DNA of 64,000 bases. Origin: Oscillospiraceae bacterium MB24-C1 (GTDB lineage: Bacteria; Bacillota; Clostridia; Oscillospirales; Ruminococcaceae). The translations under genes and the position numbers were made by a program. This document shows positions 9,718 to 26,847 of the stretch, in pieces (positions within the stretch are counted from its first letter, which is position 1; each line of letters begins with the position of its first letter). Below the pieces are notes generated by a model. The model was not told the origin of the DNA, ran no database searches, and was given only the letters and a program-made list of their open reading frames with translations. Where the stretch lies: contig CP133187.1 in the NCBI GenBank assembly GCA_030913685.1, forward strand, positions 2,670,001-2,734,000, in the 5' to 3' direction.

Positions 9718-9746
9718 TTGACAACCGACGCGGAAAGTGCTACCAT
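9718..9746 (+). promoter_or_regulatory. Sigma-A promoter of the thiamine salvage operon
   Basis: Exact TTGACA at 9718-9723, 17-base spacer, TACCAT at 9741-9746. The start would fall about 9753, at the beginning of the TPP riboswitch. Confidence 0.75.
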
Positions 9747-9749
9747 GAA

Positions 9750-9843
9750 CATTGCAAGGGAGCTTTCTTTTGGAAGGCTGAGAGGAGGGGCATAACCCCT
9801 CGACCTTACCTGATTTGGATAATGCCAACGTAGGGATGCGGTG
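9750..9843 (+). ncRNA. TPP riboswitch (THI element)
   Basis: The conserved aptamer signals are all present: GGCTGAGAGG at 9776-9785, a GAGGGG...CCCCTC stem (P3) around 9784-9802, ACCTGATTTGGATAATGCCA at 9808-9827 and GTAGGGA at 9830-9836. The closing P1 stem pairs 9750-9756 with 9837-9843 using two G-U pairs. It binds thiamine pyrophosphate. With the terminator at 9889-9921 downstream it most likely stops transcription of the thiamine genes when TPP is high. Confidence 0.96.
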
Positions 9844-9888
9844 CAATCAAAATTTTTTAGAGTGGAGTTTTCGCTCGATAAGATGATG

Positions 9889-19372: not shown

Positions 19373-20623
19373 ATGCCACAAAAGAGCATTGAGCAGTATG
19401 AACGCGAACTAATGCAAATGTACCGCCTGGCACTCGCCAAGGATCCCAACTATGCGGCGCTGGCTCGACGCCAGAGCGAAGCAATGGTACGAGACCGCAT
19501 TTCTCAAGAGGAGAAGATTGATGTTGAAATACCGGCGCCGAGTGTGGAGGAGTCCGTGCCGCTGCCGGAGGGTATCGCTCCGGTTGCAGAGACGCCCGCC
19601 ATGCCGATGACGCCCGCCATGCCGATGCTGCCCGCCATGCCGGAGACGCCCGCCATGTCGGAGACGCCCGCCATGTCGGAGACGCCCGCCATGCCGGACA
19701 CACCCGATATGCCCGAAGAAGCAACAATGCATGAAGAAATCATCATGACTGAAAAATCTATTGAGTTGTCAGAATCTGGCGTGCCCGAGCTATCCATCGC
19801 ATTCGAAGAGCTATTAGAGCCCGAGGAACCCACCTTGCAGCCAGAACCTGCCGAAGCTCCCGTTCTGGCTGTCGTTCTGCCCGTTCCAGACATCACCTCG
19901 CAGCCCGGGGCAGAAGTACAAACCCAAGTGTTGATTGGTACAGAGACTGACGACGAGAACGAAACCGAGATGGAAGCCGGTGCTGGTACAGTGGCGGCTG
20001 TCCCGCCCGAGCAGCAGGCTCCACCCGAGCAGCAGGCTCCACCCGAGCAGCAGGCTCCACCCGAGCAGCAGGCTCCACCCGAACAGCAGGCTCCACCCCA
20101 GCAACAGGGCCCCGCCGAGCAATCGGTCCCAACCGAAAAGCAGCAGGCACCGTCTGTTTCAACAATGCCAATGATGCCCATGCCCGCAGAAATGCGCCGC
20201 ACCACAGCGACACCTAATCTGGGCGCAGGCAACTTGATTGTCAACGTGACGACACAAAATCGAACAAAACCGGTTAAAGATGCTGTTGTCACGGTCAGCC
20301 ACCCCGAAGAGAGCGGAAACAAGGTGGTTGCTGAGGTTGTAACCGACAGCTGTGGTAAAACAGAGCTGATTCGCCTTCCTGCACCGATACGTGAAATTCC
20401 AATATACCCCCAGCCGATGATCGGTGGCGATTTGAGCGCACAATATCTTGTCACCGTTAAAGCGCCGGGCTATAAATCAGTGGTCGATGAGGAAATCTCG
20501 ATCTTTGACGGTGTGACCTCGGTCAAGCGCATCGATTTAGAAAGCGAAATGGGGAGTGAAATTAGTGAGGCCAGTGAGGCTAGTGCTTCTGATGAAAACT
20601 GCGCTGATATTCAGAGGGAATAG
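19373..20623 (+). CDS. Repeat-rich acidic protein with C-terminal carboxypeptidase-regulatory-like domain
   Basis: A 416-residue protein of unknown function. Residues 1-45 form a charged helical head (YERELMQMYRLALAKDPNYA). Then come TPAMPE-type repeats (about 74-113), an acidic stretch, PPEQQA repeats (about 211-246), and a folded beta-rich domain (about 285-390) with GNLIVNVTTQNRTKPVKDAV and VVTDSCGKTELIRLPAP, like a carboxypeptidase-regulatory or PEGA-like domain. No signal peptide. It ends 2 bases before the SpoIID-like gene, so the two form an operon and probably work together, perhaps in the spore envelope; that is inference. AAAGGAGAG precedes the ATG. Confidence 0.75.
   Translation: MPQKSIEQYERELMQMYRLALAKDPNYAALARRQSEAMVRDRISQEEKIDVEIPAPSVEESVPLPEGIAPVAETPAMPMTPAMPMLPAMPETPAMSETPAMSETPAMPDTPDMPEEATMHEEIIMTEKSIELSESGVPELSIAFEELLEPEEPTLQPEPAEAPVLAVVLPVPDITSQPGAEVQTQVLIGTETDDENETEMEAGAGTVAAVPPEQQAPPEQQAPPEQQAPPEQQAPPEQQAPPQQQGPAEQSVPTEKQQAPSVSTMPMMPMPAEMRRTTATPNLGAGNLIVNVTTQNRTKPVKDAVVTVSHPEESGNKVVAEVVTDSCGKTELIRLPAPIREIPIYPQPMIGGDLSAQYLVTVKAPGYKSVVDEEISIFDGVTSVKRIDLESEMGSEISEASEASASDENCADIQRE
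19592..19711 (+). repeat. 18-base tandem repeats encoding TPAMP(E/M)-type hexapeptides
   Basis: About six to seven in-frame 18-base units (ACGCCCGCCATGCCGGAG and close variants) inside the repeat-rich gene. Units differ mainly at the last codons (CCG/TCG, ATG/GAG/GAC). Confidence 0.85.
20003..20110 (+). repeat. Six 18-base tandem repeats encoding PPEQQA
   Basis: Units of CCACCCGAGCAGCAGGCT; five read PPEQQA and the sixth reads PPQQQG. DNA identity between units is nearly complete, so the array is young or kept uniform. Confidence 0.92.
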
Positions 20624-20625
20624 CC

Positions 20626-22329
20626 ATGCAAAAGAGCCGGTATGTCCAAATTCCAGAGGTTATAACAATTCATCTTGGTGACAAGGACGCCGATGCCCCG
20701 AATATTACCATGCCGTTTGCGGAATATGTAAAAGGTTGCGCCAGTTGTATTATTTGCCCAACATGGCCCGAAAACGCACAGCGCGCGAATATTTACGCCA
20801 TAACCTCCTTTGCGCTTTATCGTGTCTGTAACAAGTGGTACCGCGCGCGCGGCTATGCTTTTGACATCACAACCAGTGAGGAAGATTTGCCGTTTAACGG
20901 TCAAGGCTGCCTGTTTTATAACACAAGCTGCCTTGTGGAGGAACTGTTTAATAATTATCTGACCCGTCAGGGTAGCGGCGATCCGCTACCGGCGCAAATT
21001 TGCCAAAGCTGCCAAGCATCGGGGGTCAGCGGTGCATTGTGTCAGCTCGGGGCAATCGAAATGGCCGAAAACGGCAATACTGTCTATGATATTTTGAGAA
21101 AATATTACGGAGAGGATATTGTAATGGTGCAAAACGTACCACAAAAAGGTGGACGTGAGCGTTTTTTAGGCACCCCGTTGATGTGCGGCGCAGTTGGGGA
21201 TGATATCTGCACCATCAAGCGGGAGCTCAACTGCATCGGTCAGAACTATCCGGCCATTAAGCCGCTCGACGACGACTGCCCCAATTTTGACGCGCCTTGT
21301 GAGCGGGCGGTACGCACCTTTCAGTACATTTTTGACCTGCCTATTACCGGTGTGCTTGACAAAGCTACCTGGTATAAAATCAAACAGACCTCGGCCGACA
21401 TAGCGCAGGGCGACGCCGACCCGTTTGCACAAAAGTCTGTAGCGAATTTAAAACCTGCTTCGGGCAGTGTCTTAGCGGGCAACACAGTGGGGAATAACCC
21501 GATTTTTGACAGCAACGAGCGGGGAGATGCTGTGCAAAAGGGTGTTGTATCGAGCAGCGGCATGCCAAACATCGTCGTGCCGAGCCGCACAATACCGGGG
21601 GCAACCTCAAGCACCATTATCGTGCCGGGCGATATGACAGTAAACCCTGTAATATCCGATAGAGGTATAGCGGAAAAAGCCGCGCAGGATTACAGGCCGC
21701 CGGCGCACACAGCGTTAGAAAATGTGGCGGAATGGAACGCCATACGCGAAAGTATTATGCAAAGTGAAAATCCGCCGGACAGTATTATATCGGACCGGGG
21801 GATAGCGGCGCGTGCAGAATCTGAAAGCGCGATACCGGAAGAAGCGATCCCGGGTATCATGCCGGAAGAAGTTGTACAAAGTGAAAATCCGCCGGACAGT
21901 ATTATATCGGACCGGGGGATAGCGGCGCGTGCAGAATCTGAAAGCGCGATACCGGGTGAAGCGATCCCGGGTATCATGCCGGAAGAAGTTGTACAAAGCG
22001 AAATTCCGTCGGACAGTATTATATCGGACCGGGGGATAGCGGCGCGTGCAGAATCTGAAAGCGCGATACCGGGTGAAACAACTCCGGGCGTCATGCCGGA
22101 AAGCATTGCATACAGCAAAACCGCCCAGGGGGAAGCAGTACAATGGAATGCTGCGCGGCAAAACATACCGTCGGAGAGCATTATTCCAGAAAGCCCAGTC
22201 ACAGCACCCAAAAGTCCGACCGACCATCTTGTCAAAATAGGCCCCAGTGTCAGCACGGCACTGCCGGATGAGGGCGGTGTGAGCTCCGGCCACGCTGTGG
22301 AGTGGCTTAAAAAATATTATGGCCTTTAA
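20626..22329 (+). CDS. SpoIID-like plus peptidoglycan-binding domain protein with C-terminal 39-residue repeats
   Basis: A 567-residue protein. Residues 1-170 match a SpoIID-like domain: PEVITIHLGDKDADAPNITM, YVKGCASCIICPTWPENAQR and the WYRARGYAFDITTSEED block. Residues about 185-255 form a peptidoglycan-binding type 1 domain (GAVGDDICTIKRELNCIGQNYP, ending FDLPITGVLDKATWYKI). A long linker follows with three 39-residue repeats at about 380-496. No signal peptide is visible, as in related clostridial proteins. SpoIID itself cuts septal and spore-related peptidoglycan; here the catalytic role is not proven. It has many cysteines (several CxxC). Operon partner of the preceding gene. Confidence 0.82.
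   Translation: MQKSRYVQIPEVITIHLGDKDADAPNITMPFAEYVKGCASCIICPTWPENAQRANIYAITSFALYRVCNKWYRARGYAFDITTSEEDLPFNGQGCLFYNTSCLVEELFNNYLTRQGSGDPLPAQICQSCQASGVSGALCQLGAIEMAENGNTVYDILRKYYGEDIVMVQNVPQKGGRERFLGTPLMCGAVGDDICTIKRELNCIGQNYPAIKPLDDDCPNFDAPCERAVRTFQYIFDLPITGVLDKATWYKIKQTSADIAQGDADPFAQKSVANLKPASGSVLAGNTVGNNPIFDSNERGDAVQKGVVSSSGMPNIVVPSRTIPGATSSTIIVPGDMTVNPVISDRGIAEKAAQDYRPPAHTALENVAEWNAIRESIMQSENPPDSIISDRGIAARAESESAIPEEAIPGIMPEEVVQSENPPDSIISDRGIAARAESESAIPGEAIPGIMPEEVVQSEIPSDSIISDRGIAARAESESAIPGETTPGVMPESIAYSKTAQGEAVQWNAARQNIPSESIIPESPVTAPKSPTDHLVKIGPSVSTALPDEGGVSSGHAVEWLKKYYGL
21763..22113 (+). repeat. Three tandem 117-base repeats (39 residues each)
   Basis: Units start at 21763, 21880 and 21997, an exact 117-base period. 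The core reads SIISDRGIAARAESESAIPG in each copy. Copies one and two differ by only a few bases; copy three diverges at its ends. A degenerate earlier half unit (VISDRGIAEKA) lies near 21650. Confidence 0.95.
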
Positions 22330-22618: not shown

Positions 22619-22741
22619 CTTTATGCAGTGATATCAGGGTAGTTTTTAAAATCGAATCTGCGGCTTTAATATAAGTGCCAGCAGTAAAAAATATGTTTGA
22701 TCGCTTTGTTTAAAAACAAGCCCAGGAGGAGGACAATAGAA

Positions 22742-24172
22742 TTGTACGAAAAGTTTGAAAGCCCTTTTTCTACCCGCTATTCCAGCGTGGAGATGCAGTA
22801 TCTCTTTTCGGCTGAAATGAAATTTCGCACATGGCGCCGGCTGTGGATTGCACTGGCTAAGGCTGAGAAGGCCGAGGGCCTGGACATTACCGACGCACAA
22901 ATCGCCGAGCTTGAAGCTAACAAGGACAATATCAACTACGAGGTGGCCGAAGAGCGCGAGCGTTTGGTGCGTCACGACGTCATGAGCCATGTCTACGCCT
23001 ACGGCGTTCAGTGCCCAGATGCAAAGGGAATCATCCATCTGGGGGCGACCAGCTGTTATGTCGGCGACAACACCGACATCATCGTCATGCGCGAGGCGCT
23101 ACGTCTGGTGCGTTGCAAGCTCATCAATATTATTGCACTACTGGCTGATTTTGCCGAGCAGCACAAAGGCCAGCCCGCACTGGCTTACACGCATTTACAG
23201 CCTGCCCAGCTGACCACCGTCGGCAAGCGTGCCACGCTGTGGATGAATGAGTTGATGATGGACCTCGCCGAGATCGAGCACCGGATTGGCAGCCTAGAGC
23301 TGCTGGGCAGCAAGGGGACAACCGGTACGCAAGCCAGCTTTGTCGAACTGTTTGGCGGCGACTCGGAAAAAATAAAGCGGGTGGACAAGTTCATCGCACA
23401 CGAAATGGGCTTTGAGGGCATTGTTCCGGTGTCGGGTCAGACCTATTCCCGAAAGGTGGACGCGCAGGTGATGGACGTGCTGTCCGGCGTCGCACAGTCG
23501 GCGTCCAAATTCGCCAATGACATGCGCCTGTTGCAAAGCTTTAAAGAAATGGAAGAGCCGTTTGAAAAACAGCAGATCGGCTCGTCTGCTATGCCGTATA
23601 AGCGCAACCCCATGCGGTCTGAGCGCATCTGTGCGTTGGCGCGCTATGTGATTGCCAACAGCACAAACCCAGCGCTGACTGCATCGGTACAATGGTTTGA
23701 GCGTACGCTTGACGATTCTGCCAACAAGCGCATCGCCATCAGCGAGGCGTTTTTGGCGGTGGATGCTATTTTACAGATTATGCTCAACGTCTGCGACGGA
23801 TTGGTGGTCTACCCCAAGGTTGTCGAGGCTAGAGTCATGGCTGAGCTGCCGTTTATGGCCACCGAGAACATTATGATGCAGGCGGTTAAAAAAGGCGGCG
23901 ACCGACAGGAGCTGCACGAGAGACTGCGGTCACACTCGCTGGCGGCGGCACGCGTCGTCAAGGAAGCGGGCGGCAAGAACGACCTGCTCCAGCGCATTGC
24001 GGCCGACCCCGCGTTCGGTCTGACGATGGACGAGCTATCGCAGGTGATGCACCCCGCCTTGTTTGTTGGACGTGCACCCGAGCAGGTGGCGGAATATCTG
24101 AAAGACTATATCCAGCCGATGCTAAAAGCCAACGCGTCTATCTTGGGGGTTAAGGCCGAGCTGAGAGTTTAA
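22742..24172 (+). CDS. purB: Adenylosuccinate lyase
   Basis: A 476-residue member of the fumarase/aspartase superfamily. It removes fumarate from SAICAR and from adenylosuccinate in purine synthesis. Features are the start YEKFESPFSTRYSSVEM, the histidine-bearing LGATSCYVGDNTD and THLQPAQLTTVGKRA segments, and the family signature SSAMPYKRNPMRSERI near residue 280. I chose TTG at 22742 because AGGAGGAGG lies 9 bases upstream and homologues begin at this point; 15 codons upstream are open but unlike the family. Transcribed alone. Confidence 0.94.
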   Translation: MYEKFESPFSTRYSSVEMQYLFSAEMKFRTWRRLWIALAKAEKAEGLDITDAQIAELEANKDNINYEVAEERERLVRHDVMSHVYAYGVQCPDAKGIIHLGATSCYVGDNTDIIVMREALRLVRCKLINIIALLADFAEQHKGQPALAYTHLQPAQLTTVGKRATLWMNELMMDLAEIEHRIGSLELLGSKGTTGTQASFVELFGGDSEKIKRVDKFIAHEMGFEGIVPVSGQTYSRKVDAQVMDVLSGVAQSASKFANDMRLLQSFKEMEEPFEKQQIGSSAMPYKRNPMRSERICALARYVIANSTNPALTASVQWFERTLDDSANKRIAISEAFLAVDAILQIMLNVCDGLVVYPKVVEARVMAELPFMATENIMMQAVKKGGDRQELHERLRSHSLAAARVVKEAGGKNDLLQRIAADPAFGLTMDELSQVMHPALFVGRAPEQVAEYLKDYIQPMLKANASILGVKAELRV

Positions 24173-24355: not shown

Positions 24356-24384
24356 TTGACATTCACGTGGCATTATTCTATAAT
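24356..24384 (+). promoter_or_regulatory. Perfect-consensus sigma-A promoter of secDF
   Basis: Exact TTGACA at 24356-24361, 17-base spacer, exact TATAAT at 24379-24384. Transcription should begin near 24391, about 140 bases before secD. Confidence 0.88.
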
Positions 24385-24412
24385 GAAAGTTATTGACGTC
24401 GTAAGGAAAACG

Positions 24413-24512
24413 GTGTTTTAAGGGGCTTAATTCTGCATGAAATGCAGGGGGCCGGTGAGGGAAACCCGAGTTCCCGTCGGCCGTTATTTACGGCGCGGAC
24501 CGACTAAAACAC
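24413..24512 (+). ncRNA. Folded leader RNA of secDF
   Basis: GTGTTTTA (24413-24420) and TAAAACAC (24505-24512) are perfect 8-base complements that close a multi-stem fold ending 5 bases before the GGAGG of secD. Inside are a perfect hairpin CTGCAT-GAA-ATGCAG (24433-24447), a two-part stem pairing GGCCG (24450-24454) with CGGCC (24478-24482) and GGGAA (24459-24463) with TTCCC (24471-24475), and a competing hairpin GCCGT/ACGGC (24480-24484 with 24490-24494). The last two share bases, so they could switch. I know no described motif that matches. Confidence 0.5.
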
Positions 24513-24529
24513 GAACTGGAGGCAAGATT

Positions 24530-25927
24530 GTGAAAAAGGTTGGAAAACCGGTATTTTTCATCATCGTGTTGTTGATCGCAGCAATGGGCTATCTGACCGT
24601 TGTTGGCGTTTCAAGCACCTATGGTGACATCACCACAACCCAAATCAAAGGCATTGATGACGTGCGCTGGGGTATTGATATCCGCGGCGGCGTTGACGTC
24701 ACCTTCTCCCCGCCCGAGGGTGTGACAGCAACCAAGGAAGAGATGGCTGCCGCCGAGTCGATCATACAGATCAGACTGGTGAGTCAGAACATCACCGACA
24801 GCGAAGTCTACACCGACTACGACAAGAACCGCATTATTGTGCGCTTCCCGTGGAAGGCGGACGAAACCGAATTCAACCCCGAGCAGGCGATTGCCGAACT
24901 GGGTGCCACTGCAAACCTGACCTTCCGTGAACTGGACGAGGTCGATTCGTTGGGACTTCCCACTGGAGACACCAAGGAAAACATCGTGATCACCGGCGCT
25001 GACGTCGAATCAGCTTCTGCGGTTTATACGCAGGACCAAAGCGGCGCCAGAGTCCATATGGTTGAGCTAAAGCTCAAGGAGTCCGGTAAGGAGAAATTCT
25101 CCGCCGCAACCAAAAAGCTGGTTGGCAAGCCGATTTCTATCTGGATGGATGACACCCGGATATCCGCGCCGCTAGTCAAGGATCAGATTGTCGATGGTGT
25201 CGCCACCATTTCGGGCAATTTTGATGCCAAGAGCGCGATGGATCTTGCCAATAAGATCAACGGTGGCGCGCTGCCCTTTGCGCTGGTTACCGAGAATTAC
25301 AACACTATTTCGCCGACGTTGGGTCTTGGCGCCAAGGATGCCATGTTGATGGCGGGCGCGATTGCGTTTGCGATTGTTGGCCTGATCATGCTGTCCTTCT
25401 ACCGCCTGCCGGGCTTTGTCGCCATGATTGCGCTGTTTGGACAGGTCATTCTGATGGTCGCATCCATCACCGGGTTCTTCGCGGTATTCCCGTCGTTTAC
25501 GCTGACCCTGCCCGGTATCGCTGGTATCATTCTGGCTATCGGCTTCGGCGTTGACGCCAACATCATCACTGCCGAGCGCATCAAAGAGGAGCTTATCAAC
25601 GGCCGTTCTATCGACGCCGCAATCGACTCCGGCTTCAAGCGCGCTTTTTCGGCTATACTTGACGGCAACGTGACGGTTATTATCGTTTCGATCATTCTGA
25701 TGGGCGCCTTCGGCCCGCCGGACAGTCTGTTTACCCGCATGCTTTCACCGCTATTCTTCATGTTCGGTGTTTCGGCTTCGGGTCCAATTTACTCGTTTGG
25801 CTACACGCTGCTCGTGGGCGTTATCCTGAATTTGTTTATGGGCGTGTTCGTCTCCAAGCTTCTGCTTAAGTCGGTCTCACGCTTCAGCGCTTTTCGTAAT
25901 CCTGCGCTGTACGGAGGTAAGAACTGA
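24530..25927 (+). CDS. secD: Protein translocase subunit SecD
   Basis: A 465-residue membrane protein of the Sec translocon that, with SecF, uses the proton gradient to pull secreted proteins across. It has one N-terminal membrane segment (VFFIIVLLIAAMGYLTVVG), the signature WGIDIRGGVDVTFSPP, a large extracytoplasmic domain (about 45-290), and five C-terminal membrane segments including LPGIAGIILAIGFGVDANI. The GTG at 24530 has TGGAGG 8 bases upstream; an ATG-started extension from 24437 would run through the folded leader and its residues do not look like SecD. It overlaps secF by one base. Confidence 0.94.
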   Translation: MKKVGKPVFFIIVLLIAAMGYLTVVGVSSTYGDITTTQIKGIDDVRWGIDIRGGVDVTFSPPEGVTATKEEMAAAESIIQIRLVSQNITDSEVYTDYDKNRIIVRFPWKADETEFNPEQAIAELGATANLTFRELDEVDSLGLPTGDTKENIVITGADVESASAVYTQDQSGARVHMVELKLKESGKEKFSAATKKLVGKPISIWMDDTRISAPLVKDQIVDGVATISGNFDAKSAMDLANKINGGALPFALVTENYNTISPTLGLGAKDAMLMAGAIAFAIVGLIMLSFYRLPGFVAMIALFGQVILMVASITGFFAVFPSFTLTLPGIAGIILAIGFGVDANIITAERIKEELINGRSIDAAIDSGFKRAFSAILDGNVTVIIVSIILMGAFGPPDSLFTRMLSPLFFMFGVSASGPIYSFGYTLLVGVILNLFMGVFVSKLLLKSVSRFSAFRNPALYGGKN

Positions 25928-26847
25928 TGAAAAAGTGGAATATTAATTTTTTCAAACATCGCAAAATTTATTTTGCATTTTCTATTACGATGATTGCCTT
26001 AATGCTGGTAGGTTCCGTGATGTTTGGCGTTGACCTTGACATCCAGTTCAAGGGTGGTGCGCTTATCACCTATTCCTACACGGGCGACCTTGACCAGACT
26101 GAGTTTCAACAGTCGGTAGAATCGGTTCTGGGGCAGAAGGTTTCACTTCAAAAGTCGACTGATATTGCAACCGGTACGCAGAGGTTTGTTGTTTCGTTGC
26201 CCACCAGCGAAGGACTCAACGCCGACAAGCAGGCCGAGCTGGCCACGGCCCTTGATGAAAAATACAAGGACAACAATCTGGCCACCGCCTCTATCAGTGT
26301 TGTCAACCCCACCATCGGTAAGGAATTCCTCGTCAAGAGCCTCACCGCTGTGGCCTTTGCATCGCTGCTTATGGTGGTTTATATCAGCCTACGGTTTAAA
26401 AAGATCGGTGGCTGGGCGGCGGGTATCACTGCGGTTATCGCGCTGATACACGATTTGTTGATGGTGTTTGCAGTTTTTGTGCTGTTCCGCATATCGATCA
26501 ACGCGAACTTCATCGCGATATGCCTGACCATTTTGGGCTATTCTTTGAACGACACTATCGTTATCTACGACCGTGTCCGTGAGAATAAGCGTGTTTACGG
26601 GGATTCGATGCCGATTGAGCAGCTAATGAACCTGAGCCTCAACCAGTCGTTTACCCGTTCTTTGATGACCAGTATCACCACGGCTAGCGCAATGACCATT
26701 GTATCGATCATTGCCATGATGTATAACGTCACTTCCATTCTCTCATTTTCCTTCCCCATGATCATCGGCATGATATCCGGTTGCTATTCTTCGCTGTGCA
26801 TTGCAACCATGCTTTGGGTAATGTGGCAGAAGAAAAAAGAGGCTTAA
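25927..26847 (+). CDS. secF: Protein translocase subunit SecF
   Basis: A 306-residue SecF with six membrane segments. It opens WNINFFKHRKIYFAFSI, has the SecF signature GVDLDIQFKGGALITYSY at the start of the extracytoplasmic domain, and the later FIAICLTILGYSLNDTIVIYD segment. The start overlaps the secD stop (TGATG), so the two subunits are made together. YajC is not encoded nearby. Confidence 0.95.
   Translation: MKKWNINFFKHRKIYFAFSITMIALMLVGSVMFGVDLDIQFKGGALITYSYTGDLDQTEFQQSVESVLGQKVSLQKSTDIATGTQRFVVSLPTSEGLNADKQAELATALDEKYKDNNLATASISVVNPTIGKEFLVKSLTAVAFASLLMVVYISLRFKKIGGWAAGITAVIALIHDLLMVFAVFVLFRISINANFIAICLTILGYSLNDTIVIYDRVRENKRVYGDSMPIEQLMNLSLNQSFTRSLMTSITTASAMTIVSIIAMMYNVTSILSFSFPMIIGMISGCYSSLCIATMLWVMWQKKKEA

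Follow-up and report, generated by a model that had tools for sequence, protein, structure and literature searches.

A conserved 5' element in the secDF leaders of one Oscillospirales family

The secD gene of Oscillospiraceae bacterium MB24-C1 is preceded by a consensus promoter and a leader of about 139-145 nt, and the question raised by this locus is whether the leader contains a cis-regulatory RNA. The original prediction had proposed such an RNA, closed by an 8-bp stem that would hide or free the secD ribosome site. The observation was correct and a conserved RNA element is present, but it is a different one, located at the 5' end and built on a different helix; the proposed stem and switch are unsupported.

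The window, which is the whole 64-kb stretch of DNA analysed, was taken from a complete genome of 2.95 Mb, with relatives in the genus including Yanshouia hominis and Ruminococcaceae bacterium D5 (NCBI Oscillospiraceae). secD (24530-25927, + strand; Pfam SecDF_P1_head and SecD_SecF_C) starts with GTG and is 79-80% identical to its orthologues within the genus. secF lies at 25927-26847 (+ strand; Pfam SecD_SecF_C, 1.8e-47) and purB, near secD, at 22697-24172. The Shine-Dalgarno (SD) GGAGG of secD was read from the sequence at 24518-24522 (+ strand). Elsewhere the window contains a TPP riboswitch at 9746-9854 (Rfam RF00059, 61.6 bits) and two adjoining ORFs, 19373-20623 and 20626-22329, whose translations carry the internal amino-acid repeats PPEQQA and DSIISDRGIAARAESESAIP.

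Promoter and leader of secD

The sigma-A promoter of secDF (24356-24384, + strand) consists of TTGACA at 24356-24361, a 17-nt spacer and TATAAT at 24379-24384, matching the consensus at 12/12 positions as the original prediction had described. It is the sole 12/12 match in the 64-kb window, where shuffles expect 0.01, and from its position transcription is expected to start near 24391. The consensus promoter is rare in the host genome, since the combination of a near-perfect sigma-A promoter with an SD and an ORF occurs twice (secD and one other gene) in the 464 kb sampled.

Upstream regions of secD were compared across 111 genomes of the family, mostly from different genera. A TTGACW-17-TATA[A/C]T promoter precedes secD in 97/111, which is the fair figure for its conservation; within the 97, each position of TTGAC is kept in 98-99%, all have TATA[A/C]T and the spacing is 17 nt as a rule, these frequencies being biased upward because the 97 were themselves picked by promoter score. 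TTTT directly follows TTGAC (TTGACTTTT) in 48/97 secD promoters compared with 4/55 other exact promoters, the latter drawn as controls from other genomes by pattern search. secD often has the same promoter in other families of the order, and TTGACTTTT also stands before it there.

All of the structures drawn in the original prediction within the leader of about 140 bases were recovered. GUGUUUUA at 24413-24420 (+ strand) is a perfect 8-bp complement to UAAAACAC at 24505-24512, which ends 5 nt before GGAGG; the perfect hairpin CUGCAU-GAA-AUGCAG spans 24433-24447 with its GAA loop included; and the two overlapping hairpins, GGCCG 24450-24454 with CGGCC 24478-24482 and GCCGU 24480-24484 with ACGGC 24490-24494, have 24480-24482 in common. 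The single window leader sequence is nevertheless without sign of selected structure, because its fold energy is no better than that of shuffled sequence: 24390-24530 folded to -41.1 kcal/mol compared with -39.4 ± 3.9 kcal/mol for shuffles (z -0.44), with 61/200 shuffles equal or better.

The 8-bp stem was tested on an alignment with the three same-genus leaders for which alignment was possible. These keep the promoter and the 30 nt directly preceding secD, but their middle is replaced and the leader length differs. Three of its eight pairs (24413/24512, 24414/24511 and 24415/24510) are broken in 3/3 of these leaders, and the compensatory changes that were named as support for the stem did not accompany the losses. 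The A/T half survives in the relatives because the pre-SD AAAACAC and the T run are kept. The stem was rejected as a conserved element: its pairs are not kept within the genus, and the leader folds no better than shuffles. A search of the window leader against Rfam gave no family above the gathering threshold and none even at E up to 10. In two of the same-genus secD leaders (L031 and L032), GCGCCGCUUUUU follows a GGCUGCCGUU..AACGGCGGCC hairpin, a terminator-like arrangement, and the L031 leader is lengthened by an internally repeated segment.

The 5' motif and the P1 helix in the family

An EM search of the 30 nt after the -10 element located TGAnTGYCG at the expected transcript start in most of the 97 leaders, with a log-likelihood of 148 compared with 19-27 for shuffles. 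The motif core begins a median of 6 nt after the assumed +1, with the start inferred from the promoter. A motif score >6 was obtained for 53% of secD leaders and for 0 of the control leaders of 24 other genes. The exact combination TTGACWN16-18TATAATN4-9TGANTGYC gave 25 matches in 197 whole genomes, 20 of them directly upstream of secD, and a reversed-pattern control across the 197 genomes gave 0 matches. The five matches away from secD compare with roughly seven expected by chance, an estimate that rests on about 50 exact promoters per genome. TGAnTGYCG is strongly linked to secD in the family; it was not found at secD in the other families of the order examined, though the promoter is often kept. 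Leaders in the family range from 35 to 346 nt (median 85) and show no conservation of their interior, even among same-genus leaders.

Two further patterns were tried and rejected. A search for TGYCG 3-10 nt after the -10 element had too short a spacing and returned mostly unrelated genes, and the co-occurrence of AAUG in the motif with a pairing CAUU before GGAGG was unconvincing. Outside secD, the strict motif also matched an rplJ leader (L160) and a looser pattern matched rplM leaders (L304 and L305). A similar UGYC..GRCA hairpin was seen right after the expected start of rplJ, an rny-like gene, tRNA-Lys precursors and other transcripts (L160, L206, L212, L315 and L316); the numbers of these hairpins are near chance, though the structures look alike.

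The second half of the motif pairs with a segment upstream of the SD, forming the helix termed P1. The 3' arm mostly ends about 22-35 nt upstream of the start codon, irrespective of whether the leader measures 57 or 346 nt. Pairing of the motif arm with the pre-SD segment was stronger within each leader (-7.59 kcal/mol) than when segments were swapped between species (-5.27 kcal/mol; z -10, n = 68), and stronger than with dinucleotide-shuffled segments (-7.62 compared with -5.74, p = 5e-12, n = 85), with little signal from adjacent 10-nt arms (p = 0.02-0.04); the p-values for P1 are optimistic, as related species are not fully independent. When leaders >95 nt were searched whole, the best 3' arm fell 18-45 nt before the start in 26/36 (72%; expected 30%, p = 1.5e-7). 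The effect may be partly generic, because the ends of control leaders of other genes also tend to pair, if more weakly (z -2.7, n = 16), and P1 is weak or missing in some family leaders. The overall fold z-score was discarded as evidence because control leaders score alike (mean -1.49 for secD leaders, -1.44 for 24 controls) and it is not specific to secD. P1 is thus predicted to close the leader into a single domain, the inside of which can vary freely (50 to 346 nt).

P1 in the window

The window carries a diverged copy of the motif, TTATTGACGTCG, at 24390-24401 (+ strand), with a score of 5.8 and outside the strict pattern; same-genus copies read GTATTGATGCCG and GTACTGATGTCG. The 5' arm of P1, assigned from the family-wide pairing tests, is CGUCGUAAG at 24397-24405 (+ strand), a 9-bp complement to 24487-24495. 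The latter segment, UUUACGGCG (+ strand), is the strongest 3' arm in this species by folding; it ends 34 nt before the GTG and fits the family geometry. Minimum free energy folding of the growing transcript, a single-sequence result, extended P1 by AACGGU at 24409-24414 (+ strand) pairing with GCCGUU at 24480-24485.

In the alignment, the same-genus 3' arm falls instead on CGAC at 24501-24504 (+ strand), which pairs with GUCG at 24398-24401. At this aligned arm 4/8 P1 pairs persist in the window, one of them compensatory: the pair 24399/24503 is UA, CG, CG and UG in four genomes. From the alignment, 24501-24504 is a putative relic of an older P1 partner. The motif has diverged here, and the case for P1 is weaker in the window than across the family.

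Function of the leader and comparison with known systems

The most likely reading, at about even odds, is that P1 is a constitutive architectural closing helix, which fixes how the leader folds and leaves the ribosome site downstream of it open. P1 would engage the 5' region shortly after its synthesis and would keep the leader apart from the ribosome site, so that the leader fold would not depend on the drifting interior; the 5' end would be kept structured and the SD free, with a long-lived, well-translated secDF message as the likely outcome, and neither ligand nor switch would be needed. The original prediction suggested that the leader may hide or free the ribosome site, yet shuffling the leader left the SD less open (0.41, compared with 0.50 for the natural leaders, p = 7e-5), and in the window the SD region was predicted to be 74-90% unpaired once the gene start was included. 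Gating of the SD by P1 was also rejected, blocking the 5' arm in silico having had no significant closing effect on the SD (p = 0.10). Transcription attenuation was set aside, with no terminator-like site found in the window leader and many family leaders too short to hold one.

In B. subtilis-type decay, mRNAs are stabilised by an occluded 5' end and by a strong SD (PMC3997798). P1 would in this respect resemble the stabilising 5' stem leaders of bacteria that rely on RNase J and RppH. The secD leaders share 5' structure, a strong SD and the lack of a ligand with the stabiliser leaders of ermC, atpE and cryIIIA (PMC3997798), and paired structure near the mRNA 5' end was found computationally both across the 85 leaders tested and, over 9 bp, in the window. 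They differ in that the secD 5' arm pairs beside the SD across a variable interior, is conserved in sequence and has about 6 unpaired nt in front of it. The last point counts against a stabiliser: with P1 beginning about 6 nt downstream of the expected 5' end, several bases 5' of it stay unpaired and access of RppH is not obviously blocked. Conservation of the motif sequence beyond the need of pairing likewise counts against a plain stem.

The same excess conservation is what would be expected if the 5' motif and helix formed a secDF-specific cis-regulatory RNA bound by a trans factor (an RNA-binding protein or small RNA) through which secDF expression is tuned, a possible but less probable reading. 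Strong secD linkage across the family and retention of the motif while the interior is scrambled agree with it; against it, there is no candidate factor and no consistent second structure or switch, and the other families of the order lack the motif at secD although they keep the promoter. It is somewhat less probable still that the factor couples secDF expression to the demand for export, with no leader peptide involved, through a previously undescribed RNA element particular to this one gut Oscillospirales family.

Improbable, though compatible with the nearly fixed distance of the motif from the -10 element and with the excess of TTGACTTTT in secD promoters over controls, is a DNA-level element, in which an extended promoter or initially transcribed sequence would act on RNA polymerase or a DNA-binding regulator and the pairing would be incidental. 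Such an element would not predict species-specific complementarity up to 340 nt downstream at a fixed distance from the start codon.

It is very doubtful that P1 and the 24413-24420/24505-24512 stem toggle to control secD translation in this species. The two folds are mutually exclusive and lie within about 2-3 kcal/mol of each other for several transcript ends, and P1 can form first, its partner being transcribed before the 3' arm of the 8-bp stem. Which of them wins depends on the length of gene included in the fold: P1 and the stem gave -36.8 and -39.3 kcal/mol, respectively, to 24515, and -49.7 and -47.8 kcal/mol to 24560. Against a toggle, the stem is not conserved within the genus, neither fold alone is clearly beyond shuffles (z -1.55 and -1.96) and the SD is mostly open in longer folds. 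Two exclusive helices that both covary, as in a riboswitch, were not found, P1 being supported and the 8-bp stem not; a leader fold acting as a switch has no support so far.

The original prediction mentioned secretion-sensing leader peptides as a mode of secD control in some bacteria. A translated leader peptide of this kind, like VemP or the uDF arrest peptides, is scarcely credible here: the motif often holds ATG, GTG or TTG at the transcript start and a 2024 survey includes secDF upstream arrest peptides, a small Clostridia group among them (PMC10987492), but frames starting in the motif are open no more often than others (27, 28 and 25 in frames 0, 1 and 2), no peptide is shared, early stops are frequent and the window frame has only 3 codons. 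The known secDF leaders are arrest peptides (PMC10987492). VemP, uDF_RQH and uDF_DGMK-stop (PMC10987492) resemble the family leaders in lying 5' of secD(F) with structure near the ribosome site, whereas the family leaders show neither a conserved reading frame or peptide, such as the uORF with signal sequence and arrest motif that marks the arrest-peptide class, nor an SD hidden by a stem.

Structured leaders such as those of ribosomal-protein genes (L10 and L13, for example) also place a 5' hairpin close to the transcription start; secDF, however, has no known RNA-binding protein among its products, and the leaders have no ligand-binding core in common. The riboswitches of Rfam share the 5' UTR location with the secD leader, which differs in having no Rfam match and no conserved core. 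Among the open-licence papers searched, which give weak evidence of absence, no secDF leader RNA was described for Clostridia.

Control of SecDF in Gram-positive gut anaerobes appears to have received little attention, and the cases known from elsewhere rely on arrest peptides. An RNA element conserved at the 5' terminus and linked to secDF across scores of genera would provide a concrete, testable handle on it. Even if the element were a plain stabiliser, it would be a clear case of selection acting on the two ends of a leader only, while the middle drifts.
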